Part shown: in pieces, positions 2,524-51,057 of the stretch
Position numbering within the stretch: position 1 is the stretch's first letter
How the letters are laid out: every line of letters starts with the position of its first letter
DNA from: Acidobacterium sp. S8
Lineage (GTDB): Bacteria; Acidobacteriota; Terriglobia; Terriglobales; Acidobacteriaceae
DNA: 64,000 nucleotides
Assembly: GCF_009765985.1 (NCBI RefSeq)
Contig: NZ_LMUM01000034.1
Location: forward strand, 97,508-161,507
Direction: 5' to 3'
Made by a program: the position numbers and the translations under genes
The notes under the pieces: generated by a model
Seen by the model: the letters and a program-made list of their open reading frames with translations, nothing else
Told to the model about the DNA's origin: nothing
The model's database searches: none

Positions 2524-2536
2524 GTGACAACATGGG

Positions 2537-2575
2537 CGCCCATCCTTTTGTGCTCTTGGCAAAAGGTGGGAAGGC
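2537..2575. repeat. Dispersed hairpin repeat, family A copy 1 (inverted)
   Basis: CCCATCCTTTTG pairs imperfectly with CAAAAGGTGGG. It is the most diverged family A member and the only one outside the 39-51 kb cluster. It lies between the convergent anti-sigma and holin-like genes. Confidence 0.5.
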
Positions 2576-8832: not shown

Positions 8833-9857
8833 TTCAGCAGCCGGATGGCTCCCATCGACGCTGGTTTCGAATGCGCCGACGCATCGGTGCGCGCATGGAT
8901 CTCATCCTTCCTCTCCGCATAGTATTCATAAGCGCGCGTCAGCATCTCTTCATTGGTCACAGTCGGCTGCCATCCCAGCTGTGCTTTCGCCTTGGTCGTG
9001 TCGAAGAGGAAGTCTTCCGCAATCATCTGGTAGTGATAAGGTCCCAGCGGCGATACCTTCAGCACGTGCGCCAGCTTCATCGCCGCCAGCGTCGGACCCT
9101 TCGGCAGCGAACGTACGCGCGATTTGCTTCCCGCCTTGCGAATCACCGCCTCGTACACCTCGCGAAGGGTCTTCACGTTGTCCGAGCCAACGTGAAAGGT
9201 ATCCGATCCCTGATAGTCAAGCGCACGGATGCACGCCGAAGCCAGGTCCTGTGCATAGATGAACTGGTAGCGATTGTCACCCTTGCCGACTACCCAGATC
9301 GTATTGCCGTCGTGCATGAACTCGAAGAGGATGGCAAGCAATCCCAGCCGCCCGCTGTCGATGATCGTAGGACAGCGCAGTGTTACGATGTCGAGCTTGT
9401 CGGTATATTTTGTCAGGCCCTGTTCTGCAGCCAGCTTTGACTTGCCGTAGATCTCGATCGGCTGCGGCGGCTCCGTCTCGGCAACCGGATGCCCCAGGTT
9501 GCTGGCCCATAGACAGTTTGTCGAGATGAAGACCATCTTCTTTACGCCGGCCGTAACACAGGCTTTCGCAAGGTTCAGCGTACCGTCGATATTGGAGGTC
9601 CACAGCTGGTCGCTGTCGATCTTTCCGTGCGCGAGCATCGCCGCACAATGAATGACGCCGTCGAAGCGCTCTTCGTAGAAGACTTTTGCGAGCAGCGCCG
9701 TGTCCCTCAGATCACCCTGCACGCTCTGCAGTCCGGGCAATCGGTCCGTGTCAGGAAGCAGGTCGTAATTCACGCAGGTGTAGCCTTCGGCCAGCAGTCT
9801 GCGTTTGAGTACGCCGCCGAAAAAGCCGGACCCGCCAGTGACAAGAATATGGGGCAT
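8820..9857 (-). CDS. NAD-dependent epimerase/dehydratase (extended SDR)
   Basis: 345 residues. The Rossmann motif TGGSGFFG lies at the N-terminus, the active-site YGKSK follows mid-protein, and the serine/threonine of the triad is in the FISTNCLW strand. Enzymes like this modify nucleotide sugars or sterol-like substrates. The C-terminal LGWQPTVTNEEMLTRAYEYY is typical of extended SDRs acting on sugars. It is the first gene of a two-gene operon with the GT-C enzyme. Confidence 0.88.
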   Translation of the reverse strand: MPHILVTGGSGFFGGVLKRRLLAEGYTCVNYDLLPDTDRLPGLQSVQGDLRDTALLAKVFYEERFDGVIHCAAMLAHGKIDSDQLWTSNIDGTLNLAKACVTAGVKKMVFISTNCLWASNLGHPVAETEPPQPIEIYGKSKLAAEQGLTKYTDKLDIVTLRCPTIIDSGRLGLLAILFEFMHDGNTIWVVGKGDNRYQFIYAQDLASACIRALDYQGSDTFHVGSDNVKTLREVYEAVIRKAGSKSRVRSLPKGPTLAAMKLAHVLKVSPLGPYHYQMIAEDFLFDTTKAKAQLGWQPTVTNEEMLTRAYEYYAERKDEIHARTDASAHSKPASMGAIRLLKWLS

Positions 9858-9875
9858 TTTTCCCAGTCTACTCTG

Positions 9876-9956
9876 CCGTCATTCTGACGACCAACGGAAG
9901 GAAGAATCTCAAGCCAGGCCGATTTGGGATTCTTCTCCCATGGCTCAGAATCACGG
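9876..9956. repeat. Dispersed hairpin repeat, family B copies 1a/1b in inverted pair
   Basis: CCGTCATTCTGACG...AGAATCTC is an inverted copy, followed about 13 bases later by the forward copy GGGATTCTTC...CTCAGAATCACGG. The two arms can pair with each other. It lies between the divergent epimerase and DUF1080 genes. Confidence 0.6.
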
Positions 9957-10049
9957 CTTTCATACTTGATCTACATCAAAGGAAAGCTTAATTCCTGACG
10001 CAAATGTCGGAGCTGCATGCGCTGCGGGCGACGGTGTATCCTCAACACC

Positions 10050-10844
10050 ATGATGCGCATACGTCCTATCTTGGTGTTTCCGATCGCCTCCCTCGCCTTC
10101 ATTGCCTTTCCGCTTTTCGCGCAGCAGGCAGACAAGCCCAAGCCCGAAGACACAGAGGTTTGGGAACCGGTACCGGCAGTGGTGACCCCGGGAGCGACAC
10201 CCACCGCGGCTCCCTCCGACGCGATCATCCTCTTCGACGGTAAGAATGAGGACGAATGGGTATCCGCGCAGGACAAATCTCCAGCCAAATGGATCGTCTC
10301 CGATGGCGTACTGACCGTCAGTAAAGCGCCCGGTGTGGGCAACATCGAAACCAAACGAACATTCAAGAACTATCAACTTCACATCGAGTGGAAGGTCCCT
10401 GAAAATATCACCGGCTCGGGCCAGGCGCGCGGCAACAGCGGTGTTTTTCTTGCCTCTACCGGTCCCGGCGACGATGGATATGAATTGCAGGTTCTCGATT
10501 GCTACAACAACAAAACCTACGTCAATGGAATGGTCGGAAGCATCTACAAGCAGGCTATTCCTCTGGCGAATGCGGCCCGTAAACCCGGAGAATGGCAGAG
10601 CTACGACGTGGTGTGGACCGCGCCGACCTTCAATGAAGATGGTTCTTTGAAAACACCCTCCTATGTCACGGTCTTCTTCAATGGCGTATTGGTAGAGAAC
10701 CATTTCGAGTTGAAAGGCCAAACCCTGTATATCGGAAAGCCTTTCTATAAGAAATACGATTCGGCCCCGATCAAGCTGCAGGCGCACGGCGACCACAGCG
10801 AGCCCCTCAGCTTCCGGAACATCTGGGTGAGAGAGCTGAACTAG
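10050..10844 (+). CDS. DUF1080 (3-keto-disaccharide hydrolase-like) secreted protein
   Basis: 264 residues from the first ATG of an MM start; the track begins 11 codons earlier without reason. A signal peptide (ILVFPIASLAFIAFPLFAQ) leads to one DUF1080 domain, recognised by IILFDGKNEDEWVS, the NSGVFL strand and YELQVLDCYNN. The fold is a concanavalin-type jelly roll. Some DUF1080 proteins hydrolyse 3-keto-glycosides, so an extracytoplasmic role in glycan breakdown fits, but the reaction is inference. Confidence 0.88.
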   Translation: MMRIRPILVFPIASLAFIAFPLFAQQADKPKPEDTEVWEPVPAVVTPGATPTAAPSDAIILFDGKNEDEWVSAQDKSPAKWIVSDGVLTVSKAPGVGNIETKRTFKNYQLHIEWKVPENITGSGQARGNSGVFLASTGPGDDGYELQVLDCYNNKTYVNGMVGSIYKQAIPLANAARKPGEWQSYDVVWTAPTFNEDGSLKTPSYVTVFFNGVLVENHFELKGQTLYIGKPFYKKYDSAPIKLQAHGDHSEPLSFRNIWVRELN

Positions 10845-39385: not shown

Positions 39386-39418
39386 CCCACTCTTTCGCAT
39401 AAGCGCGAAAGAATAGGG
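39386..39418. repeat. Hairpin repeat, family A copy 2 (forward)
   Basis: CCCACTCTTTCGC, ATAA, GCGCGAAAGAATAGGG: hairpin with GCGCCCGG flank on the right. A family B copy follows 30 bases later. Confidence 0.6.
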
Positions 39419-39447
39419 CGCCCGGTTCTTGGGTCCTGCGCCTGACT

Positions 39448-39488
39448 GGAGATTCTTCATTCCGCTTCGCTTCATTCAGAATGACGGC
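39448..39488. repeat. Hairpin repeat, family B copy 3 (forward)
   Basis: GATTCTTCATTCCGCTTCGC followed by TTCATTCAGAATGACGGC; the ends can pair as GATTCT/AGAATG-type arms. Confidence 0.65.
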
Positions 39489-39694
39489 GTGCTGCCAGGG
39501 GTACCCCTCCCCGTTTTGTACGGAGATTTTTTATTTTCAGTGGTTTACAAGGCATAGCATCTACGGAGATCTTTTGTTTTCTATGAGTTGCGAAGGATAG
39601 AGAAGCTGCTCCGACGATTTTGTCCGCTCCTTACTACTATTTACCAATTTGGGCAGTAATTATCGGCAATGCTATGTCGTTGTTGATGCTCGAT

Positions 39695-40807
39695 TTAGCG
39701 GACTGAAGGGGTTGACACCACTCCATTGCCTGCGGATGGCAGGGCGCCTAATTTTGCGATTCGCCCTTTCGGGCCGACAATCCATGGAAGGCTGAGGGCG
39801 TTCCAGTTGTCGTTGTCGAGTGGCTTCCAGGTTTTGCCGTCGTCGTAGCTGATATCGGAGCCGCTGGTTCCTGCGGCGATCCATGCTTGAGCGTCTGCGT
39901 CCCAGGCGACGGTAGAACGGTAGCCGTGCGGCGGTTTCGTGGCGGCAGTCCAATGTTGGCCCCCGTCGGTGGTCCAAGCGGCGGTTCCGTTGGATTCGTC
40001 CGGCTTGGTGTAGTCGCCTCCTACGGCTACAGCGATAGTCTTGTCTGCATTCATTGCAATCGAGAAAATTCCCGCCGAAGCCGTGGTTCCAGCCATGGGC
40101 AGCTTCTTCTTTTCAAAGAGCAAGGATTTTTCAAAGCAGGTTGCTGGGCTCATTTGTGCCGTAATTGATGTACAGACACTGTCCCCAGTATAGAGATAGG
40201 GACCGTCTGGTCCGCTTGTCCCAAACCATGGCACATGGGAGGGGCCATACAGAAGCGCCGAATTACTGGCTGCAAAAGCTCCGATCCTAACCTTGCCGAT
40301 ATCAAGGTTCGCTGTGTTGACGCGATCCCATGTTTTCCCAGCGTCCAGGGTAAAAAGCAGTACGAGTCTGTCTTTTACCGGGTCACCCAGAGCAAATCCG
40401 TGGTCTTGATCCTCAAACGCCAACGCGTCCCAGAAGCCGCCCTTGTCTGGGTTGGTGTAGAGCAGTGTCCAGTGGGAGCAGCCGTCCGTTGTCTTGTAGA
40501 GGCGGGACTGGTCGCCGGGGCCGCTGGACATGACGATGGCGGTGTTGGCGTCCCAGGCCCAGATGCCGCGGAAGTCGAGCTTTTCCGCTCCCGGCGGCAT
40601 GGCGCAGCTTTGCCACATGTAGCCGCTGTCCTCGGTGCGCAGGACAATGCCGTCGGTTCCGCTGGCCCAGGCTACTCCGCCGCCGACGGCATGGATGCCG
40701 CGCAGACTGGCCGTGGTGCCGCTGTTCTGCATCTCCCATGGGCCGGATTTCTCGGTTTGCGCGCTGGCGGTGAGGGTGATGGCGAGGAGCATGGCGGCGG
40801 CTTTCAT
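39695..40807 (-). CDS. Secreted beta-propeller protein (YCF48/BNR-like)
   Basis: 370 residues with a signal peptide (AAAMLLAITLTASAQ). Repeated strand motifs with aspartate-box character, such as YKTTDGCSHWTLLYTN, FTLDAGKTWDRVNT, WTTDGGQHWTAAT and SYDDGKTWKPLDND, indicate a propeller of the BNR/YCF48 type. These are seen in sialidases and in plant photosystem assembly factors, but no catalytic residue set is visible, so a binding role is likelier. The product is extracytoplasmic. Confidence 0.82.
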   Translation of the reverse strand: MKAAAMLLAITLTASAQTEKSGPWEMQNSGTTASLRGIHAVGGGVAWASGTDGIVLRTEDSGYMWQSCAMPPGAEKLDFRGIWAWDANTAIVMSSGPGDQSRLYKTTDGCSHWTLLYTNPDKGGFWDALAFEDQDHGFALGDPVKDRLVLLFTLDAGKTWDRVNTANLDIGKVRIGAFAASNSALLYGPSHVPWFGTSGPDGPYLYTGDSVCTSITAQMSPATCFEKSLLFEKKKLPMAGTTASAGIFSIAMNADKTIAVAVGGDYTKPDESNGTAAWTTDGGQHWTAATKPPHGYRSTVAWDADAQAWIAAGTSGSDISYDDGKTWKPLDNDNWNALSLPWIVGPKGRIAKLGALPSAGNGVVSTPSVR

Positions 40808-40843
40808 CGTGGTTCAAGGATATTTGATTTTGGAAGGTGGACC

Positions 40844-40897
40844 GGGGCTGAAGCCCCTCTTTTTGCGTGGCGGGATTCACCGGGCAAAAGCCCGGTG
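40844..40897. repeat. Two short perfect hairpins
   Basis: GGGGCTGAAGCCCC at 40844-40857 and CACCGGGCAAAAGCCCGGTG at 40878-40897. The first is followed by TCTTTTT. They are a different sequence class from families A and B. Confidence 0.65.
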
Positions 40898-40978
40898 CTT
40901 CTACCCTCTCGTCTTTCTGGGCCAATCCGATGTCTGAGAAGGCGATGGGTGTTTTGTCGCTTTGGAAGTGACTGCGAT

Positions 40979-41016
40979 CCCACCCTTTCGCCTTCGGCTC
41001 AGAATGGGGCACCCGG
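40979..41016. repeat. Hairpin repeat, family A copy 3 (forward)
   Basis: CCCACCCTTTCGCC...GAATGGGGCACCCGG; stem shortened by an inner TTCGGCTC loop. A family B copy follows about 50 bases later. Confidence 0.65.
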
Positions 41017-41067
41017 CTTTGCTTTTCTGGTTGAAGGTTTGGGCGATCATGCCTGCCGGGGTATTTC

Positions 41068-41105
41068 ATGGATTCTTCGTCGCTGCGCTCCTCAGAATGA
41101 CGGCC
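41068..41105. repeat. Hairpin repeat, family B copy 4 (forward)
   Basis: GGATTCTTCGTCGCTGCGCT followed by CCTCAGAATGACGG. Confidence 0.65.
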
Positions 41106-41134
41106 TGAGGTTTGATTATGAATTTGGTTTGGTT

Positions 41135-41188
41135 AGGAAAAAGAAAGGCCCGCCAGCCGGAGTGCGAACTGCACATGGCTGACGGGCG
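41135..41188 (-). terminator. Terminator of the GH3 gene
   Basis: On the minus strand GCCCGTCAGCC pairs with GGCTGGCGGGC with one mismatch, then CTTTCTTTTTCC. Confidence 0.75.
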
Positions 41189-41220
41189 GGAGAAGTGTCG
41201 GAGACTCCTTGAAAGTTTAC

Positions 41221-43470
41221 TTAGTGGATGTCGAGGCTACCCTTCAGCGGGGTTTCCGCTGAGGACGGGCCGGCGACGATCTTGTACTTGCCGGAGAGCA
41301 GCTGCCAGCTTTCTTTCTGCTCGTCGAAGATCGAGATCACCTGCGGATCGACGGTGATGGTGACGGTCTTCGATTCGCCGGGAGATAGATCGACGCGCTC
41401 AAAGCCGACGAGGTGCTTGAAGGACTCGTCAGATTTATCGGGAAGTGTGGCGTAGACTTCGGCAATTTCGGTTCCGGAGCGCTTGCCAGTGTTCTTTACC
41501 TTGAAGGACACGGTCTTCTGATCGCTGTCTGTCTTCAGATCAGAATAAGAGAAGCTGGTGTAGGAGAGCCCATAGCCGAAGGGGAAGAGCGGCTGCTTGT
41601 GCTCGGCTTCGTACCACTTGTATCCCACCTTCACACCTTCGTCATAGCTGACGCTGTACTTCGATTCGGCATGGGTGCGGCCATTGACAGCGCCTGTGCC
41701 CTGGCCTTCGTCCTCTTTGGTCAAAGGCGCGATGGTGGGACGCGGCAGATCGGCTTCACTCTTCGGGAAGGTCATGGCGAGCTTGCCTGAAGGGTTGACC
41801 TCTCCGGTGAGAACGTTGGCGAGTGCGATGTGACCGCTGGTGCCTGCGTACCAGGCTTCGACTACGCCACTGACATTGTCGAGCCACGGCATGGTGACGG
41901 CTGTGCCGGATTCAAGGACGACGATGGTGTGCGGATTGGCGGCGGCGATCTTTTCGATCAGCGCATCCTGATTGTCGGGCAGTGAGAGCGAGGGTAGGTC
42001 CATGCCTTCAGAGATCCACTGGTAGGCGAAGACGATAGCTACGTCAGAGCTCTTGGCCAGCGATGCAGCGGAGTCGAGGTCCTGACCATCGTTGTACTCG
42101 ATCTTGGTGCTGGGCAGCTTTTCGCGCAGCGCCTTGAGTGGTGAGGTGGGGAACCAGATGTGTTCCTGCCAGTGGGTTGAGCCCTGTCCTGGAGGCATGA
42201 TGGCGTTGCCGCCTGGAGGATCGACCTGCGCGGAGCCGCCACCGGAGATCATGCCAACGTCGGCATGGCCGCCGATGAGGGCGATGCTGTGAATCTTACC
42301 GGAGTTGAGGGGCAGGATGCTCTTGTCATTCTTGAGCAGGACGATGCTCTGCTCTTCGATGTGCTGCGCGACTTCAAAGCCGTGGCGCACGTCGACTACG
42401 CCCTTCTCGCCGGGGTTATCAACAAGACCATCGGCAAATATGGAGCGGAGAACGCGGCGTGCATGGTCGTCAATTTCAGACTGCGGCACGCGGCCTGCTT
42501 CGACGGCTTCCTTGAGCTTGGGGCCGAAGAAGTCGCCCATGGGCTCCTCGTTGTCGAGACCTGCAGCGGATGCCTTCTCGGTGCTGTGCGTGCCACCCCA
42601 GTCGGAGACGACGAAGCCTGGAAACTTCCACTGATCTTTGAGGACGGTGGTGAGGGTGTATTTATTTTCGCAGGCGTAGTCGCCATTGATGCGGTTGTAG
42701 GAGCACATGACGGCGCCGGGGTCAGCGATCTGGATGCCAATGTGGAAGGCGAGAAGGTCGCTTTCCTGCATGGCGCGATGCGAGATGGTGGCGTTGACGA
42801 TGTTGCGGCCGGTTTCCTGATCGTTGATGGCGTAGTGCTTGATGTCGCCGATGACGTGCTCGGCCTGTTCGCACTTCATGAGGTTGCCAACGAGCGTTCC
42901 GGCCAGGAGCGGATCTTCGCCCATGTACTCAAAGCTGCGTCCGTTGCGGGGCTCGCGGGTGAGGTTGACGCCGCCGCCGAGGGTCATGTTGTAGCCCTGG
43001 GCGCGCAGTTCGCTGCCGATGACCTGACCGAAGCTGCAAGCTGCCTGCGGGTTCCAGCTGGAGGCTGCGCCGAGGTTGGAGGGAAGCGCGGTGGAGTAGC
43101 GGCCATTCTCGCCGCTGCTGCGGACGCCATAGGCGGCGTCGGACATATAGATGTTGGGGATGCCGAGGCGCTCCGGTCCGACAGTCATGCCCGCTCCGCC
43201 ATTGGCCTGCGAGGTGAGAGGCATCTGCCAGTTAGGCGTGTGGGGCATGCCATTGCCGTGCAGCAGATCGATCTTTTCATCGAGCGTCATCTGCTTGAGG
43301 ACGAGCTCGGCACGCTCGTCTGGCGAGAGGCTTTTGTTCATCCACGGCTGGTTCTGGACGTCGGGGGCTTTTTGATGGTGCTTCTGCGCCTGCATTGGCG
43401 CGGCTGGCGTGAGCATGGTGAAAATGCCGGCGGCCAGGGGCAGGCATTTTATGAACGTACGAATCCGCAT
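41221..43470 (-). CDS. bglX: Secreted GH3 beta-glucosidase
   Basis: 749 residues with a signal peptide of about 28. The GH3 N-terminal barrel carries the nucleophile D290 in FVVSDWGGTHS and the substrate loop GDIKHYAINDQETGR. The second alpha/beta domain and a C-terminal fibronectin-III-like domain (TDSDQKTVSFKVKNTGKRSGTEIAEVY) follow, the usual BglX layout. It releases glucose or xylose from oligosaccharides outside the inner membrane. A palindrome just upstream may be its operator. Confidence 0.95.
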   Translation of the reverse strand: MRIRTFIKCLPLAAGIFTMLTPAAPMQAQKHHQKAPDVQNQPWMNKSLSPDERAELVLKQMTLDEKIDLLHGNGMPHTPNWQMPLTSQANGGAGMTVGPERLGIPNIYMSDAAYGVRSSGENGRYSTALPSNLGAASSWNPQAACSFGQVIGSELRAQGYNMTLGGGVNLTREPRNGRSFEYMGEDPLLAGTLVGNLMKCEQAEHVIGDIKHYAINDQETGRNIVNATISHRAMQESDLLAFHIGIQIADPGAVMCSYNRINGDYACENKYTLTTVLKDQWKFPGFVVSDWGGTHSTEKASAAGLDNEEPMGDFFGPKLKEAVEAGRVPQSEIDDHARRVLRSIFADGLVDNPGEKGVVDVRHGFEVAQHIEEQSIVLLKNDKSILPLNSGKIHSIALIGGHADVGMISGGGSAQVDPPGGNAIMPPGQGSTHWQEHIWFPTSPLKALREKLPSTKIEYNDGQDLDSAASLAKSSDVAIVFAYQWISEGMDLPSLSLPDNQDALIEKIAAANPHTIVVLESGTAVTMPWLDNVSGVVEAWYAGTSGHIALANVLTGEVNPSGKLAMTFPKSEADLPRPTIAPLTKEDEGQGTGAVNGRTHAESKYSVSYDEGVKVGYKWYEAEHKQPLFPFGYGLSYTSFSYSDLKTDSDQKTVSFKVKNTGKRSGTEIAEVYATLPDKSDESFKHLVGFERVDLSPGESKTVTITVDPQVISIFDEQKESWQLLSGKYKIVAGPSSAETPLKGSLDIH

Positions 43471-43500
43471 GTTGTTCCCTCAGGGTTTTCGATTGCGTGG

Positions 43501-43517
43501 CCATGCTAAAAGCATGG
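43501..43517. promoter_or_regulatory. Palindrome upstream of the GH3 gene
   Basis: CCATGCT, AAA, AGCATGG, about 31-47 bases before the GH3 start, with a TTGACG hexamer further upstream on the minus strand. The position fits an operator overlapping the promoter. Confidence 0.45.
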
Positions 43518-43712
43518 AAATACGATCGTCAAGCTCAAACGATTTAGTAAAACCGGAAAATTGATTTGCGTCGAAGGCTAATTGGAGTCAATCGTTTGTC
43601 TTGGAAGACAGTTCAGGTTAGCACGGCGGAGATGTCTTCACTGTCATACGGCGGTGAATTTGGGATAGCATCATCTTGCCCAAGATAAGCTTGTTTCCGT
43701 GGGGGAAGACCG

Positions 43713-46136
43713 ATGCAGATACTCCTGCAAGACCTGCGCTATGCCTTTCGCCAGCTACGCAAGAATCCTGGCTTTGCTCTGACGGCGATATTGACGCTGG
43801 CTCTCGGAATTGGCGCGACGACAGCTGTTTTCAGCGTGGCTTATGGCGTGCTGATCGATCCGTTTCCGTATAAGGACGTGCATACGCTGGCTACGCCGAA
43901 GCTCTGCTCTTCGGAGTGGCCGTGGGGCTGCGGGTGGAATGTGTATACGGGCGCGCAGTTCAACGAGATTGCGCAGAAGACCGATATCTTCAGCGGCGTA
44001 ACGGCTTCGACGATCAGCAATGTGGTGCTGACGGGAGGCGCGGAGCCGCAGCGGATTCGGGGCAATTACGTTACGGCGAATACGTTTGACGTGCTGGGTG
44101 TGCAGCCGATTCTCGGACGGGCGTCGACGGAGAACGACGTGCTGCCGGGTCATGGAGAGGTGGCTCTGCTGAGCTATCGGTATTGGCAGGCACACTACGG
44201 CGGGAATCGCTCGGTGCTGGGTAAGGTGCTGACGCTGGATGGGCATCCATGCACGGTGATTGGAGTCATGCCACCGCGGTTTCTGTGGCGCGGCGGGGAC
44301 GTGTATCTGCCCATTCAAATTACGAATGAGCGTGAGGTACATGGGCAGCACTTTTTCGCGCTGGTAGGACGGCTGAAGCCGGGTGTAACGGATGCGCAGG
44401 CAACGGCTGAGCTGGCGCCGATCTTTGCTGATTTTGCGAAGACCGATCCGCATGGATATCCGAAGGATCTCCGCCTGGGGATTATGCCGTTCGACCAGAT
44501 GTTTCAGTCAGGACTGGCGAGCACGCTTTATCTGCTGTTGGGCGCGGTGGGTGTGCTGCTGCTGATTGCATGCGTGAATGTGTCGAGCCTGCTGCTGGCA
44601 AGGGCGGTATATCGTGAGCATGAATTTGTAGTACGGGCTGCGATTGGGGCTTCGCGAATGCGGCTGGTGCGGTATGCGCTTACCGAGTCGCTGCTGCTGG
44701 CTGCGGTCGCGATGCCGGTGGCTCTGGGATTCGCCTATGCCGGGCTGCAGGCCACGCTGAGGATTGTGCCGGCGGAAACGATTCCGGATGAAGCGGTAGT
44801 GACGATGAATGTGCCGGTGCTGCTGGTGTCGATTGGCATAGCGCTGGCGACGGTGCTGATCTTCGGGCTGGCTCCGGCATGGCACAGCGCGAATCCGAGA
44901 TTGGCGGCGGTGTTGAACAGCGTACGCTCTTCGGGGAGCAGGGCGCAGCGGCGACTGTTGAGCGGCTTTGTGGTGACAGAGGTTGCGTTGTCGCTGGTGT
45001 TGCTCATCCTGGCGGGGCTGATGGTGCGCTCGCTGATGGCGGTTGAAAATGCTCCGGTGCCATTTTCTCCGGATCACACGCTGATGATGCGGATTCCGCT
45101 GACGGATGAGCGGTATCCAACCGCGGAGCGTCGAGCGCAGTTCTTCCGCGAATTGACGGAGAAGGTGCGCTCGCTGCCGGGCGTGAAGAATGCAACGATA
45201 GATGATGCGTTTCCTCTTATGGACATGTATGGAGACCATGTGCAGATAGCGGGACAGCCAGTGGATAAGCGCTTTACGAATATTCATCTGACCGACGCGG
45301 TGTATACGCAGATGGCGGGCCGCAGGATTCTGCAGGGGCATGCTCTGGATGAGCGGGAGATTGAGGAAAAAGCGCATGAGATCGTGGTAACGGAGAATTT
45401 CGCCAAGCGCTATTTCAGCGGTCAGAATGTGCTGGGGCGGACGGTGCATCTGCCGGAGTTTCAGCCAGACGGGAAGAACAAATTGCAGGACGATGCCTTT
45501 ACGGTTGTGGGCGTGATGGATGACCTGCCGCTCTTTGCCGGGTTCCGCGAGGATTATCCGCATATCTTTATGCCGTACACGATTGCGCCGGAGGCGGACA
45601 GCGCGCTGATTGTGGAGACGGCAGTGCCTGCGGATGACCTGATGAATGCTGTGCGGCAGGCGGTCTATTCGATCGACAAGGACCAGCCGATTGTTGCTGC
45701 CATGAGTCTGCGGCAGATGCTGGATATGTATGGATATGCGGGGCCACGGTTTGCGCTGGCGTTGTTTGGGACCTTTGCGGCAGCGGCGCTGGTGCTCTCA
45801 CTGGTTGGGATTTATGGGGTGCTGTCGTTTGTGACTTCGCAGCGTACGCAGGAGATCGGGATTCGCATGGCATTGGGCGCCGATCGAGGCAAAGTGATGT
45901 GGATGGTGCTGCGCCATGCGTGTGTGCTGGCGCTGCTCGGAGTCGCTGCAGGCTTGCCGTTGGCATTTTTTGCCGGACGCTTTGCCAAGGACGAGCTGAT
46001 CAACACTTCGCAGCATGATCCGGTCGCGATTTTGGTGGCGGTGTGCATTCTGCCGCTGCTGGCTGTGGCGGGAACATGGCTGCCTGCGCGGCGGGCTGCG
46101 GGAATCGATCCGGTCAAGGCGCTGCGAGCGGAGTGA
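43713..46136 (+). CDS. ADOP-type ABC transporter permease (MacB/FtsX-like), copy 2
   Basis: 807 residues, the same length as copy 1. It begins LLQDLRYAFRQLRKNPGFALTAILTLALGIGATTAVFSV and ends LPARRAAGIDPVKALRAE, with FtsX helix sets in the middle and at the C-terminus (TQEIGIRMALGADRGKVMWMVL). No ATPase, membrane-fusion protein or regulator flanks it, so it is an orphan. It probably forms a MacB-like mechanotransmission complex with an ATPase encoded elsewhere. Confidence 0.92.
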   Translation: MQILLQDLRYAFRQLRKNPGFALTAILTLALGIGATTAVFSVAYGVLIDPFPYKDVHTLATPKLCSSEWPWGCGWNVYTGAQFNEIAQKTDIFSGVTASTISNVVLTGGAEPQRIRGNYVTANTFDVLGVQPILGRASTENDVLPGHGEVALLSYRYWQAHYGGNRSVLGKVLTLDGHPCTVIGVMPPRFLWRGGDVYLPIQITNEREVHGQHFFALVGRLKPGVTDAQATAELAPIFADFAKTDPHGYPKDLRLGIMPFDQMFQSGLASTLYLLLGAVGVLLLIACVNVSSLLLARAVYREHEFVVRAAIGASRMRLVRYALTESLLLAAVAMPVALGFAYAGLQATLRIVPAETIPDEAVVTMNVPVLLVSIGIALATVLIFGLAPAWHSANPRLAAVLNSVRSSGSRAQRRLLSGFVVTEVALSLVLLILAGLMVRSLMAVENAPVPFSPDHTLMMRIPLTDERYPTAERRAQFFRELTEKVRSLPGVKNATIDDAFPLMDMYGDHVQIAGQPVDKRFTNIHLTDAVYTQMAGRRILQGHALDEREIEEKAHEIVVTENFAKRYFSGQNVLGRTVHLPEFQPDGKNKLQDDAFTVVGVMDDLPLFAGFREDYPHIFMPYTIAPEADSALIVETAVPADDLMNAVRQAVYSIDKDQPIVAAMSLRQMLDMYGYAGPRFALALFGTFAAAALVLSLVGIYGVLSFVTSQRTQEIGIRMALGADRGKVMWMVLRHACVLALLGVAAGLPLAFFAGRFAKDELINTSQHDPVAILVAVCILPLLAVAGTWLPARRAAGIDPVKALRAE

Positions 46137-46327
46137 GCGTTATCTTTTGGGAATTCGTGCGTCTGTCATTTTGAACAGGACGGCTGCCGATTGCCTCGAT
46201 CTTGCTTAAGCCCACATCTCTTCAAGATGTCGGTTATCGGAGGGCACGCTGAGGGGAATCCGATGAGGTTCACCAGAGCAAGCGTCTTTCGGACTGCATC
46301 AGAATCTTTTCTTTCGGAGGCATTTTT

Positions 46328-46672
46328 TTGAAGAACTTTACAGTCACAAACGCGCTGTTGACGGTGATTGCGATTGCGTTGGTGTCGATTGCGATTCGGC
46401 CATACGTTGCGCCGCAGACAGCGCAGGCACAGGCAACGGCTCCCTATCCGTTTTATTTCGAGCCGGGGACGCAGATGCTGAAGGCTTCTGATGGAAGCAA
46501 GCAGCTTTATGGTCGCGTGGTGGTCGATATGCGGAATGGGAAGATATGGGGTTTTCCAACGAATACGCCGGACACCTATCCGTGGAATCCGGTGGATGCC
46601 AAGCCACAGATCTCACATCCGTTTTATCTGGGTAAATTTGCTTTTGAGGATACGGACAAGATCGACAGGTAA
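46328..46672 (+). CDS. Small secreted or anchored protein of unknown function
   Basis: 114 residues from a TTG start with GGAGG eight bases upstream. The N-terminal hydrophobic helix (NALLTVIAIALVSIAIRPYV) and Ala/Gln-rich stretch could be a signal peptide or an anchor. The rest, with KQLYGRVVVDMRNGKIWGFP, looks like a small beta domain. I recognise no family, though proteins of this shape seem recurrent in acidobacteria. Confidence 0.7.
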   Translation: MKNFTVTNALLTVIAIALVSIAIRPYVAPQTAQAQATAPYPFYFEPGTQMLKASDGSKQLYGRVVVDMRNGKIWGFPTNTPDTYPWNPVDAKPQISHPFYLGKFAFEDTDKIDR

Positions 46673-46727
46673 TAGCTGGATCGAGGAGCGGGAAAACCCA
46701 GGAAGGTATTTCGACTATCTGCATTCT

Positions 46728-46769
46728 CTGGATTCTTCACTCCGCTTCGCTGCGTTCAGAATGACGGCT
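46728..46769. repeat. Hairpin repeat, family B copy 5 (forward)
   Basis: TGGATTCTTCACTCCGCTTC followed by GCTGCGTTCAGAATGACGG; nearly identical to copy 6. A family A copy lies 32 bases downstream. Confidence 0.7.
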
Positions 46770-46801
46770 CTTGAGTGATACGCCTTTCTAAATCGGCGGC
46801 C

Positions 46802-46844
46802 GGGTGCCCCATCCTTTCGCGCATTTTGTGAAAGGGTGGGAGAC
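46802..46844. repeat. Hairpin repeat, family A copy 4 (inverted)
   Basis: GGGTGCCCCATCCTTTCGCG, loop, TGAAAGGGTGGGAGACG: near-perfect stem. Confidence 0.75.
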
Positions 46845-46881
46845 GAAAATACTCACCAGGCTAAATGACGGCTCATCTGTT

Positions 46882-47559
46882 CTAAATCGGCGGCATACCT
46901 TCGATGATGTGCGCTCCGGTGGGGGTGTGAAAGACGAAGTCGGCGTCGGTGGCCGGGGCGTTCGGCTGCTCGTCTGCGAACGCGAATGTGTTGATGGCGC
47001 CGTCGGTCTCTTCGATGCGCATGGACTGGATAACGCCTTCAGTGTTTGCCGTGATGCTGAAGGAAGCGATGCGCTGCTCCATGTTTTTGGGGATGCCGGA
47101 GAGGGTGTAAGCACCATTGTCGGCCGGAGCGATCTGAAGATTAGTTAATTCTTTGGAAAGTTGCGTGTGGCCGAGAAGGAAGCGCAGCGGCGAGCGAAGG
47201 TCATCGAGTTTCCTGGCCGGGACGCGCGGAATTTCCATGTCACCGGGGGCGTAGAAGTACGCGTTCTGTCCATCGAGGACGAAGAGCTTTCCTTGTGGCA
47301 GTGAGTATGTCCAGCGCATCTTGCCCGGCTTTTTCAGGAGCAGGATGCCGCTCTCTACGCGGTGCATGCCCATGCCGTCGTATTTCTGAGTGAATTTTAC
47401 TGACAGAGAATGAAGCGCGTTGTAGTGCTTGTCGATGCGGGCGGCCTGAGACTCGGCAGTGGGAGTCTGGGCGTGGAGCTGGATGGATGTGAATGCCAGG
47501 AGGAGCGCGAGAAACCCGGAGAAGAATTGCGGGGAGTTGAGTCTATATGGATTCTTCAC
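46882..47559 (-). CDS. lolA: Outer-membrane lipoprotein carrier protein LolA
   Basis: 225 residues with a signal peptide (FFSGFLALLLAFTSIQLHAQ). The LolA half-barrel is shown by YNALHSLSVKFTQKY, GILLLKKPGKMRWTYSLPQGKLFVLDGQNAYFYAP and QSMRIEETDGAINTFAF. It ferries lipoproteins across the periplasm. The only usable start is a GTG lying inside family B copy 6, so the first residues (MKNPYR) are encoded by repeat sequence. LolB and LolCDE are not in the window. Confidence 0.9.
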   Translation of the reverse strand: MKNPYRLNSPQFFSGFLALLLAFTSIQLHAQTPTAESQAARIDKHYNALHSLSVKFTQKYDGMGMHRVESGILLLKKPGKMRWTYSLPQGKLFVLDGQNAYFYAPGDMEIPRVPARKLDDLRSPLRFLLGHTQLSKELTNLQIAPADNGAYTLSGIPKNMEQRIASFSITANTEGVIQSMRIEETDGAINTFAFADEQPNAPATDADFVFHTPTGAHIIEGMPPI

Positions 47560-47587
47560 TCCGCTTTGCTCCGTTCAGAATGACAGG
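47547..47587. repeat. Hairpin repeat, family B copy 6 (forward), overlaps lolA start
   Basis: TGGATTCTTCACTCCGCTTT followed by GCTCCGTTCAGAATGACAGG. Its first 13 bases are the start of the lolA reading frame on the opposite strand. Confidence 0.7.
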
Positions 47588-47602
47588 TGTTGGGATGGAC
47601 GA

Positions 47603-47643
47603 TATCCCACCCTTTCGCAAAATGCGCGAAAGGATGGGACACC
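47603..47643. repeat. Hairpin repeat, family A copy 5 (forward)
   Basis: TATCCCACCCTTTCGCAAAA followed by TGCGCGAAAGGATGGGACACC; stem of about 14 pairs, 15 bases after a family B copy. Confidence 0.75.
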
Positions 47644-47710
47644 TAGGTTTTGTGGCTGTAGAAAAAAAGCAGGTCCTTCGACTCGGCGCCCTGGACGAAG
47701 GGCTCGAATG

Positions 47711-48235
47711 CTACTGCAGTGGCACCGTGCAATTGGTTCCGCCTGCTGGATCGGCCTTGATTTCGCCGGTGATGTCGATGCAGAAGCCGCGGTGGCCGGT
47801 TTTGCCTACGGCCTGGGGCACGGCGGTCGCTTCATAGCCGGTGTACATGTCCTGGTTATTCACCGTCGTCTTGGTGCAGTTGACGATGTTGAAGGCGTAT
47901 CCAGCCTTTACCCCGGTCGCGAGGTCGCGCTGCAGCAACTGGGAGTTCGTTGCGCTCGGCGGCCCTGAGTTCGAATCGCCGCCCAGCGCCTGCAGCGAGC
48001 AGGCAAACCCGTTGGCGGGGTAGTTCGTCTGGAATTGAATTTCCGACTGGTAGATGGCACGCAGAGACTGAATGGCCGAAGTCTCATTCGCCTGGCTGCG
48101 CAGATTGAGCATGTTGGGGATGGCAATGAGCATGAGGATCAGCATGATCGAGATAACGATCAGCAGTTCCATCAGGGTAAATCCAGCTTGCCGCCTGCGG
48201 CGGTCCGAAGGTCTTTGCATTTGAAGATCAATCAT
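47711..48235 (-). CDS. Type IV pilin/pseudopilin major subunit-like protein
   Basis: 174 residues. The prepilin peptidase site AGFTLMELLIVISIMLILMLIAIPNML has the required Gly before the cut and Glu at mature position 5. The globular part contains four cysteines that could form disulfides. The leader is long (about 17 residues) and basic. It is about 15 kb away from the secretion operon but could supply its filament subunit. A start five codons later is possible but has no ribosome site. Confidence 0.88.
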   Translation of the reverse strand: MIDLQMQRPSDRRRRQAGFTLMELLIVISIMLILMLIAIPNMLNLRSQANETSAIQSLRAIYQSEIQFQTNYPANGFACSLQALGGDSNSGPPSATNSQLLQRDLATGVKAGYAFNIVNCTKTTVNNQDMYTGYEATAVPQAVGKTGHRGFCIDITGEIKADPAGGTNCTVPLQ

Positions 48236-48349
48236 GGGTCGTGTGCTTCTCCCCGTAGGCTGCCAAAAAGACAGCCGCCGAGAGAAATCCTAAATTAGTA
48301 GGACGCAGGATGCCAGCGAAGCGCTCATTTACTGGGCACAGGGGTTTAC

Positions 48350-48389
48350 TATCCCACCCTTCGCCTGTGGCTCAGGATGGGGCACCCGA
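48350..48389. repeat. Hairpin repeat, family A copy 6 (forward)
   Basis: TATCCCACCCTTCGCC...TCAGGATGGGGCACCCG; shortened inner stem like copies 3 and 8. Confidence 0.65.
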
Positions 48390-48420
48390 TGTACCTGACT
48401 TTCAAAAATGAGGCGATGCC

Positions 48421-48466
48421 GGGTACCCCATCCTTTCGCGCACTTTGCGAAAGGGTGGGATAGCCC
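48421..48466. repeat. Hairpin repeat, family A copy 7 (inverted)
   Basis: GGGTACCCCATCCTTTCGCG followed by CACTTTGCGAAAGGGTGGGATA; inverted relative to copy 6, 31 bases away. Confidence 0.75.
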
Positions 48467-48479
48467 TTGTGACCTGACC

Positions 48480-49754
48480 CTAGCAATCAAGCTGGCTGCG
48501 ATTGAGCTTTACGCCGTCGAGGCGGCCCAGCAGCGTCACCGCGACCAATCCCGGCTGGAAGAGATGGTTGGCCATGGCCAGCACCTGATCCTCGCTGATG
48601 GCTTCGACCTTGTCGAGGATCTCCTGCATGCCGAAGAAGTAGTTGAAGTGCATCTGCTGGCGCGCGAGGTTCGACATGCGCGACATGGAGCTTTCAAGAG
48701 AGAGCAGCAGGTTGCCCTTGAGCTGGTCTTTGGCGCGGCGCAGCTCATCGGCTGGCAGGGGCTCATTCTTCAAACGGCGGAACTGCTCCATGACTAACTG
48801 GACGACCTGCACTGCGCGGTCGGCGGAGGTTCCGGCGTAGACGCAGAGCGATCCGGTATCGCTGTAAGGATTCAGGTCGCTGTAGATCGAGTAGGCGAGG
48901 CCGCGCTCTTCACGGACAGTCTGGAAGAGGCGCGAGGACATGCCACCGCCGAGAATCGTATTCAAGACAAGCGTGACGTAGCGCGACTCGTCGGCAATGG
49001 CCGGAGCAGGGACGCCGAGGCAGAGCTGGACCTGTTCGAGCGACTTCTTATTCTTGAGAATGATGCGAGCCGCGGTCTTTGGAGAGACGGCAAAGCTCAC
49101 AGATTCGCCTGCCGGCAGCGATTCGAAGCGACGCGTGACCTGCTCGACGAAGGCATCGTGGTCGAGATTTCCGGCAGCGGAAAAGATCATATTGCCGCCG
49201 TGGAACTTCTGGCCGTAGTAGCTACAAAGCGTATCGCGCTCGAAGCGTCGCACAGTCTCTTTCGTTCCGAGGATCGGCCTGCCCAGCGGGTGGTCCTTCC
49301 AGAACGCCTGAGTGAAGATTTCGTGGACCAGATAATCAGGGTTGTCTTCGTCCATCTTGATCTCTTCAAGGATGACGCCGCGTTCGCGCGTGATCTCATC
49401 ACTGGCGAAGACGGGATTGAGGACGAGGTCGGAGAGGACGTCGAGGGCTACCGGGACGTGCTCGTCGAGCACCTTCATGTTGAAGCAGACCGTTTCTTTG
49501 CCGGTGAAGGCGTCGAGATTGCCGCCGATGGCGTCGACTTCGCGGGCGATGTGTTGCGCGGACCGCGACTTGGTGCCCTTGAAGACCATGTGCTCGACAA
49601 AGTGCGAGATGCCGTTGACCTCAGGCATTTCGTGGCGCGAGCCCGCGCGAATCCAGACGCCCATGGCGACGGAGCGGACGTAATCCATTTTTTCGGTCAG
49701 AATCGTAAGCCCGTTAGGCAGGACGGTGCGGCGTATATTGCGTTCGTTATCCAT
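48480..49754 (-). CDS. M16 family zinc metallopeptidase
   Basis: 424 residues, the single-chain two-domain form. The inverted zinc motif HFVEH gives ligands H51 and H55 with catalytic E54; the third ligand Glu lies about 75 residues on. The C-terminal half holds the R/Y substrate clamp region (GLAYSIYSDLNPYSDTGSLCVYAGT). These processing peptidases degrade short peptides or trim proteins. The gene is divergent from rlmN. Confidence 0.93.
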   Translation of the reverse strand: MDNERNIRRTVLPNGLTILTEKMDYVRSVAMGVWIRAGSRHEMPEVNGISHFVEHMVFKGTKSRSAQHIAREVDAIGGNLDAFTGKETVCFNMKVLDEHVPVALDVLSDLVLNPVFASDEITRERGVILEEIKMDEDNPDYLVHEIFTQAFWKDHPLGRPILGTKETVRRFERDTLCSYYGQKFHGGNMIFSAAGNLDHDAFVEQVTRRFESLPAGESVSFAVSPKTAARIILKNKKSLEQVQLCLGVPAPAIADESRYVTLVLNTILGGGMSSRLFQTVREERGLAYSIYSDLNPYSDTGSLCVYAGTSADRAVQVVQLVMEQFRRLKNEPLPADELRRAKDQLKGNLLLSLESSMSRMSNLARQQMHFNYFFGMQEILDKVEAISEDQVLAMANHLFQPGLVAVTLLGRLDGVKLNRSQLDC

Positions 49755-49849
49755 TTGATAATTCCTGGTTGGTTGCTGCCCGTGCGGACTATGGGACTGC
49801 TCTCTGTGGCAGGGAGAATGCGCTATGCTGTCTCAACGGAGCTGTTGCT

Positions 49850-51004
49850 ATGATGCCGCCGGGCAGGAAAAAACCTATCTCCATTTTAGACTCTCTTGGG
49901 GCTGCCGCGACTCAACCTCTTTTTGGCCTTAAAAATCAACAACTTAAAGATTTGCTCAGAGAATTTGCCGAGCCGGCCTACCGCGTAAAGCAGCTTTCCG
50001 GGGCACTTTACCGGGAATGGGTCGACGATCTGGCAGAGGTTTCCACGCTGCCGAAGACTCTCCGGGATGCCATTTCAGAGCGCGGATATCAGGTTGGATT
50101 GCCGAAAATTGTCGAAGCATTTACCTCGGTCGATGGCACCGAGCGCTATCTGATTTCCGGGAACGATGGGCAGACGGTCGAGACAGTCTGGATGCCGGAT
50201 GGCGATGGCGGCGAGGCGGACGATGGTTCGGAAGCCGGAACGGATTTGCGACGGGCAACGATCTGCGTTTCGAGCCAGATTGGCTGCGCGGTGAATTGCC
50301 AGTTTTGCCTGACGGCGAAGCTGGGAATCATTCGCAACCTGACCGCCGGCGAGATTGCCGGGCAGGTGGTCACGGTGCTGAAGCGGCAGAAGGTTCGGAT
50401 CGGAAGGGATCGCATCAACCTCGTCTTTATGGGGATGGGCGAGCCGTTTCTCAACTACGACGAGTTCATGGCGGCGGTGCGGCTGCTGGTAGAAGAAGTT
50501 GGGATTCCCGAGTCGCGGATGACGGTTTCGACTTCGGGAATTGTGCCGGGGATTTTGCGGTTCGCCGAAGAGACGCTGCGACCGAAGCTGGCGATTTCAC
50601 TGAACGCTCCGAATGATGCGATTCGCGCTGGGATTATGCCGATTACGCGCAAGTGGGATATCTCGGATGTGATGACGGCGGTGAAGCGGGTTTCGCTGCG
50701 CGCGAAAGAGAAGATCACGTTTGAGTATGTGCTGCTAGGCGGCTTGAATGACCGCCTCGATGACGCGGACGAGGTCGGACGGCTGCTCAGGCGCGCGAAT
50801 CTGCCGCTGAAGGTGAATCTGATTGTCTGGAATCCGGGGCCGGGGATGCCGTATCGCATGTCAGATCCGGATACGGTGGCTCAGTTTCAGGAGCGGCTGC
50901 GGTTGAGTGGTATTCCAGCGTTCGTGCGCAGGCCGCGCGGACGGGATATCTATGCGGCTTGCGGTCAGTTGAAGCGGACTACGGAGCTGGTTCAGGTTGA
51001 ATAG
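49850..51004 (+). CDS. rlmN: 23S rRNA (adenine-C2)-methyltransferase RlmN
   Basis: 384 residues from the first ATG of an MM pair; the track extends 27 codons too far. The radical-SAM cluster motif is CAVNCQFC, and INLVFMGMGEPFLNYD is a family hallmark. Two further conserved cysteines are expected for the methyl transfer; the C-terminal one is in IYAACGQL. It methylates A2503 of 23S rRNA and A37 of some tRNAs. Confidence 0.95.
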   Translation: MMPPGRKKPISILDSLGAAATQPLFGLKNQQLKDLLREFAEPAYRVKQLSGALYREWVDDLAEVSTLPKTLRDAISERGYQVGLPKIVEAFTSVDGTERYLISGNDGQTVETVWMPDGDGGEADDGSEAGTDLRRATICVSSQIGCAVNCQFCLTAKLGIIRNLTAGEIAGQVVTVLKRQKVRIGRDRINLVFMGMGEPFLNYDEFMAAVRLLVEEVGIPESRMTVSTSGIVPGILRFAEETLRPKLAISLNAPNDAIRAGIMPITRKWDISDVMTAVKRVSLRAKEKITFEYVLLGGLNDRLDDADEVGRLLRRANLPLKVNLIVWNPGPGMPYRMSDPDTVAQFQERLRLSGIPAFVRRPRGRDIYAACGQLKRTTELVQVE

Positions 51005-51029
51005 AAATTGTCGGCTCTCTGGAAACTGA

Positions 51030-51057
51030 CCCCACCCTTCGCTCAGGATGGGTACCC
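51030..51057. repeat. Hairpin repeat, family A copy 8 (forward, short)
   Basis: CCCCACCCTTCGCTCAGGATGGGTACCC, between the convergent rlmN and yvcK-fusion genes. Confidence 0.6.

Follow-up and report, generated by a model that had tools for sequence, protein, structure and literature searches.

Two unrelated REP-type hairpin systems in Acidobacterium sp. S8 and their putative nuclease partners

The window analysed here is the whole 64-kb stretch at positions 97508-161507 of contig C27 of Acidobacterium sp. S8 (genome G000; 5.44 Mb in 38 contigs), and it contains two families of dispersed intergenic hairpin repeats, A and B. That both families are real, as a preliminary description of the same DNA had proposed, is borne out by re-reading every listed copy in the sequence. 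Both behave as repetitive extragenic palindromes (REPs), judging by their copy number, intergenic position, occurrence in both orientations, polymorphic sites among congeners and bracketing of nuclease genes. It is on balance probable that two independent REP-type systems are represented in the window, each linked with a nuclease gene of its own at another place in the genome, namely a REP-associated tyrosine transposase (RAYT) for family A and a small GIY-YIG nuclease for family B.

All of the family A copies previously listed, seven in the 39-51 kb region plus one at ~2.5 kb, were found, three of them proving to be a short variant with a family B centre. The others lie at 2536-2572 (plus strand, degenerate), 39386-39424 (minus, degenerate), 46803-46841 (plus, with a GGTGC foot and CCCATCCTTTCGC..GTGAAAGGGTGGG), 47605-47643 (minus) and 48421-48460 (plus, GGGTAC foot). 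The short variants, all on the minus strand, lie at 40979-41015 (A foot GGGTGCCCCAT and B-type centre CTGAGCC..GGCGAAAG), 48353-48388 (B-type centre) and 51031-51057 (a minimal form, GGGTACCCATCCTGAGCGAAGGGTGGG). Of family B, the four copies of the same region are present at 39449-39487 (CGTCATTCTGAATGAAGCG..GAAGAATCTC), 41069-41103 (GAGGAGCGCAGCGAC centre), 46729-46767 and 47548-47586, all on the minus strand, and the inverted pair at 9877-9957 is present too. This pair is a CGTC-outward dimer, with a left half at 9877-9910 (plus strand, CGTC foot, GACGACC..GGAAGG centre) and a right half at 9927-9957 (minus strand, degenerate foot GTGATT), while the second inverted pair reported near 24.8 kb is a degenerate remnant only. 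A third hairpin family (C), missed in the preliminary description, is represented at 40844-40905 on the plus strand by GGGGCTGAAGCCCC and ATTCACCGGGCAAAAGCCCGGTGCTTCTACC.

Across the whole genome the strict family B pattern, which is specific to one stem type, matches 119 copies (121 with the reverse-complement form) and the strict family A pattern about 52 places, far above chance, given that the reversed control patterns have no match for either family. A census of 1.234 Mb of assembled stretches (23% of the genome) holds 29 A, 8 short A, 41 B and 13-14 C copies as well as 12 of A2, a family related to A, and no copy of any hairpin family was found in Markov-shuffled census sequence. Only ~17% of the census is intergenic, yet 67 of the 70 copies of A and B lie entirely between genes, the remaining three overlapping the edge of a gene, in line with the earlier claim that the repeats lie between genes or at their edges (all such assignments rest on genes predicted by a simple codon-usage script). 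Divergent (promoter) gaps hold only 9 of 103 elements, compared to 27% of gaps (p=6e-6).

Each family has a recognisable anatomy. Family A reads 5'-GGGTGC, then CCCATCCTTTCGC..loop..GCGAAAGGGTGGG, then ANAGC; family A2 has GGGTGC followed by CCCAGGTTCGCGAAGCTAACCTGGG, and short A has GGGTGC followed by CCCATYCTGAGC..GCGAAGGGTGGG. Family B consists of CGTC, ATTCTGA..centre..GAAGAAT and CYA, with at least five centre types, and its pairs are mostly CGTC-outward; family C reads ATTCACCGGGCTAAAGCCCGGTGCTTCTACC. Short A unites the foot of A with the centre of B (CTGAGC..GCGAAG), and feet and centres therefore appear to have been exchanged between families. Such chimeric hairpins (A foot, B centre) bracket a RAYT in another genome (G029, locus L107). 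C27:331750-331900 holds a further CGTC-like family, whose stems read ATCCT and tails GACCTGC (GTCATCCTGACCCTGAACGGAGTGAAGGGGAAGGACCTGC), with many matches in congener G003.

The sites are polymorphic among congeners, and A and B come and go independently. The congeners compared, G003 and G001, are only ~80% identical to the host genome, and this divergence, together with some unalignable gaps, limits claims at the level of single bases. G003 has the A copy at 39386 and G001 lacks it, the neighbouring B copy at 39449 is in neither, and the pair at 48353-48460 is missing from both. A B-like copy occupies the 47548 site in G001, where the A copy at 47605 is not found, and at C27:336-338 kb G003 lacks three A-type copies but has the same B copy. 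For most copies the position is not conserved in relatives, whereas conserved positions had been named as an argument for fixed terminators.

The absence of a RAYT from the window, noted earlier, is confirmed, as the three Y1 genes of the genome all lie elsewhere; the encoded proteins all score above the REP_Tyr_transpos (NCBIfam) cut-off. A search of the genome for a REP-associated transposase, as had been proposed, yielded a RAYT at C27:739629-740144 that is bracketed by family A. It scores 100.5 bits against the REP_Tyr_transpos cut-off of 80, falls under the IS200 cut-off and has E. coli TnpA-REP (4ER8) as its best solved relative; in its locus (L053), where the gene occupies 9629-10144, the A hairpins lie at 9393-9428, 9523-9565 and 10154-10189. 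The second RAYT (C27:499480; locus L002, C27:499283-501498) carries A2 hairpins and the third (contig C5; L001/L337) is flanked by family C hairpins, so that each RAYT paralogue has a hairpin family of its own. The orthologous RAYT is likewise bracketed by A in congeners G001 and G002, at a position shared by G000 and G001 and different in G002. Among relatives, RAYTs of this clade have differing stems and the same foot: the GGGTGCCC foot accompanies 29 of 35 RAYTs of the PEH-motif clade vs none of 10 outside it, it is clustered on the RAYT tree (4 changes vs 12.7 shuffled), and its density is 2.1/kb beside RAYTs compared to 0.13/kb further off.

For family B a Y1 transposase was considered as partner and ruled out, since B hairpins flank none of the 30 Y1 loci in six genomes that carry B. 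The genes that B does bracket encode a small GIY-YIG protein. One of them is a frameshifted gene at C27:378644-378933, found between two inverted B copies that are separated by 507 bp, and the other, intact and coding for 107 aa, lies between tpiA and pgk at C20:1973-2296 and is bracketed by B hairpins at 1850-1887, 1908-1940 and 2301-2333. The first of these hairpins differs by only 2 mismatches from the window copy at 39449-39487. The two GIY-YIG copies are only about 57% identical to each other, and the nearest named relatives of the protein are found in Acidobacteriota (e.g. Edaphobacter and Granulicella).

The association extends well beyond this genome. CGTC hairpins were detected as GTCAT plus three paired bases, which admits hairpins with G.A mismatches that a demand for near-perfect pairing misses, and a gene was considered bracketed if such a hairpin occurred on both sides within 250 bp. 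In the GIY-YIG loci of 30 relatives, CGTC-type hairpins occur on both sides in 13 and on at least one side in 19, with a density of 2.87/kb near the gene vs 0.29/kb far from it. Sixteen named plasmid or replicon records (Sinorhizobium, Shinella, Rhizobium, Azospirillum lipoferum 4B, Aeromonas, Spirosoma, Planktothrix and others) give 3.6 vs 0.35/kb, with canonical hairpin forms such as CGTCATCCTCGGGCTTGACCCGAGGATCCA, and three apparent negatives among them carry CGTCACCCC or CGTCGCCCC variants on both sides. The bracketed gene of the Planktothrix plasmid (L236) has an MmeI-type restriction gene on one side and DISARM drmA on the other.

A profile search of genome contigs, with an alignment of four sequences as query, gave eighty GIY-YIG loci from many phyla, of which 51 have CGTC hairpins on both sides, 14 on one side and 15 on none (4.47/kb near vs 0.32/kb far). 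Both-sided loci occur in at least 14 phyla, as read from record titles. By comparison, of 2981 random 270-bp intervals taken from these loci only 41 are bracketed (1.4%), as are 5 of 887 census genes; with a relaxed detector, 72 of the 80 loci have at least one hairpin while random intervals are bracketed in 1.5% of cases. The nearest hairpins are CGTC-outward in 84 of 116 cases (p=1.5e-6). Of the 178 locus hairpins, 172 have CGTC or TGTC as their foot and 134 have CCA as their tail, letters that were not demanded in detection; there are 16 stem types, so that foot and tail persist as the stems vary. The stem base is equal on both sides in 40 of the 51 bracketed loci, compared to 10.7 when shuffled. 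In addition, the A/RAYT and B/GIY-YIG associations are doubly dissociated: RAYT loci contain the GGGTGC tag at 2.54/kb and CGTC at 0.07/kb, whereas GIY-YIG loci contain CGTC at 2.50/kb and GGGTGC at 0.06/kb. Two sites show the module next to alternative states. In Azospirillum lipoferum 4B the sufB-sufC gap holds hairpins, GIY-YIG gene and hairpins, none of which is present there in three relatives, and one Sphingobium site exists in three states, i.e. empty (TYG72, TYG65), with a solo CGTC hairpin (TYG64, TYG74) and with hairpin, GIY-YIG gene and hairpin (TomMM7A).

The GIY-YIG protein matches PF01541, and its active-site residues (the GIY-YIG tyrosines, Arg, His, Glu and Asn) are invariant. 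Its structure is predicted with confidence (pLDDT 94), and the folds nearest to the model are UPF0213 (1ZG2), followed by Slx1 and the UvrC domain. Since Slx1 has branched DNA as its substrate, cleavage of a hairpin or cruciform by the GIY-YIG protein is plausible.

Following these results, the family A hairpins may be non-autonomous derivatives of the RAYT (HUH tyrosine nuclease) module. The RAYT would recognise the 5' foot GGGTGC together with the hairpin and nick single-stranded DNA there, as TnpA-REP does, and such nicking could have spread family A between genes. Family B corresponds to CGTC-type REPs, with the small single-domain GIY-YIG nuclease inside the CGTC-outward brackets as its proposed partner. 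This nuclease might bind the foot (CGTC..ATCCA) of a hairpin or cruciform and cut there, and cutting could then cause hairpins, and on rare occasions the entire hairpin-giy-hairpin module, to be copied or to undergo gene conversion. A small number of diverged GIY-YIG genes per genome vs many hairpins resembles the situation of RAYTs. More generally, the chances seem evenly balanced that CGTC REPs owe their spread to a dedicated GIY-YIG nuclease, that HUH-Y1 and GIY-YIG enzymes became partnered independently with tagged hairpins, and that the hairpin-giy-hairpin module is the autonomous form of which the dispersed CGTC hairpins of bacterial phyla are non-autonomous derivatives. Copy number, bracketing, foot specificity and site polymorphism are observed directly, whereas recognition, cleavage and the direction of cause are what we infer from them.

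Several observations weigh against the proposal of two nuclease-driven systems. Association by itself is no proof that the hairpins are moved by either enzyme. G003, which lacks the cognate RAYT and whose only close RAYT carries a different hairpin, still holds at least 19 A copies, from which it seems that the repeats outlive their enzyme; similarly, G056 holds 37 B copies while no GIY-YIG homologue was detected in it. In the tpiA-giy-pgk arrangement (L335, L207 and L336, in three congeners) the gene keeps its position and the flanking CGTC hairpins differ in type, a pattern that fits domestication or in-place hairpin replacement as well as mobility. Furthermore, family B hairpins gain no extra stability in nearest-neighbour folding (z about 0). 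Their pairing rests on the conserved ends and possible tandem G.A pairs, for which the CTGAG/CGAAG register would leave room as sheared pairs.

The main rival, which we regard as unlikely though deserving serious consideration, is that the GIY-YIG gene is a selfish homing endonuclease that uses CGTC REPs of other origin as landing sites, where a solo REP is cut and the gene is copied by break repair from a REP-giy-REP donor. The three-state Sphingobium series fits this course of events, and GIY-YIG is a classical homing-endonuclease fold (PMC1564403). However, only 1-7 GIY-YIG genes occur per genome despite up to hundreds of target REPs, and the divergence of the two copies in the host genome is not that of recent copies. 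Moreover, no homologue was found in 50,697 phage records, and no DNA-binding appendage or extra recognition domain is visible in the domain search or the model. A functional link could also be lacking altogether if hairpins and small nuclease genes simply pile up in the same permissive gaps. Both are indeed intergenic and the repeats avoid divergent gaps, but the enrichment is family-specific in both directions, the hairpins are biased to the outward orientation with stems that match on the two sides, and bracketing is tens of times commoner than in random intervals, so that this explanation is largely refuted and its probability slight.

It is also very improbable that the hairpins serve the neighbouring genes as fixed transcription terminators or RNA-processing signals. 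The strong folding of family A (z -5, nearest-neighbour) and the avoidance of promoter gaps would suit such a role, and functions of REPs in termination and mRNA stability have been hypothesised (PMC3733652), but no T-run follows A or B, a terminator scan of the region lists no A or B copy, no Rfam family matches in the window, and presence or absence differs between congeners at the same sites. The least credible of the explanations, which can hardly be maintained, is the earlier suggestion that A and B together make up a composite mobile element. It drew on the four A-B neighbour pairs in the window, which do exist (gaps of ~19-54 bp), and the B centre shared by short A is in its favour. Yet pair order, orientation and spacing vary, and genome-wide a B copy lies no more than 120 bp away from 4 of 37 A copies, compared to 2.0 expected (maximum 9 in 300 simulations of random placement in gaps, strict patterns only). 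Because adjacency is not above random placement, a composite element finds no support. A and B also have separate nuclease partners and are independently present or absent in relatives, and they are taken to be two unrelated REP-type systems.

The 2013 survey of CGTC REPs left their spread open for want of an adjoining transposase, and the bracketed nuclease makes this question testable. If the proposed role of the GIY-YIG protein is true, it would mean that the REP/RAYT lifestyle has been arrived at a second time with an unrelated enzyme, and would provide a lead to a very small, hairpin-specific nuclease. For family A, the clade-specific GGGTGC foot serves to predict the acidobacterial RAYT to which a hairpin belongs. 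Open-licence PMC full text yielded no paper that connects GIY-YIG genes with REPs (subscription papers and preprints being outside this scope), and priority is unproven; palindromes are not mentioned in a 2006 GIY-YIG survey (PMC1564403), nor GIY-YIG or transposases in a 2025 REP survey.

Compared to known systems, family A resembles the GTAG REP/RAYT systems (REPtrons, REPINs and E. coli TnpA-REP) in having foot-tagged intergenic hairpins that bracket a single-copy HUH Y1 gene, and in the presence of several RAYTs per genome with their own hairpins each. Unlike the GTAG superfamily, its foot is GGGTGC next to CCC, with no GTAG or GT[AG]G. RAYT/TIRYT-associated hairpins in Acidobacteria have been described by Di Nocera et al. 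(PMC3733652), and acidobacterial TIRYTs are already known, one with a repeated family in Koribacter (PMC3733652, PMC6006769); family A adds to these with a distinct foot, and it differs from the TIRYT motif GGGGWSAS in that its tag, which reads GGGGCACC on the other strand, has C rather than A/T as fifth base. The GIY-YIG protein shares PF01541, the catalytic residues and the fold with UPF0213, Slx1, UvrC and homing GIY-YIG nucleases, but unlike these it is a REP-bracketed single-domain protein of about 90-107 aa.

Family B, in turn, is like the CGTC REP superfamily in its unpaired CGTC foot (C or T before GTC in nearly all of the 41 census copies), its stem starting with AT, its CCA-type tail (e.g. 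ATCCA or ATCTC), its inverted dimers and its intergenic position. It is unlike that superfamily in its long variable centres and in its host, since the five phyla listed for the superfamily do not include Acidobacteria (Di Nocera 2013, PMC3733652). Its 5 bp outer stem is followed by possible tandem G.A pairs and the variable centre, a structure that may or may not be equivalent to the 8-9 bp stem and loop of 4-5 of the superfamily. The same paper reports no dedicated transposase for CGTC REPs, whereas here CGTC hairpins bracket GIY-YIG genes in many phyla. The reported lack is an absence report and not a structural criterion, and the membership of family B in the CGTC superfamily therefore stands.

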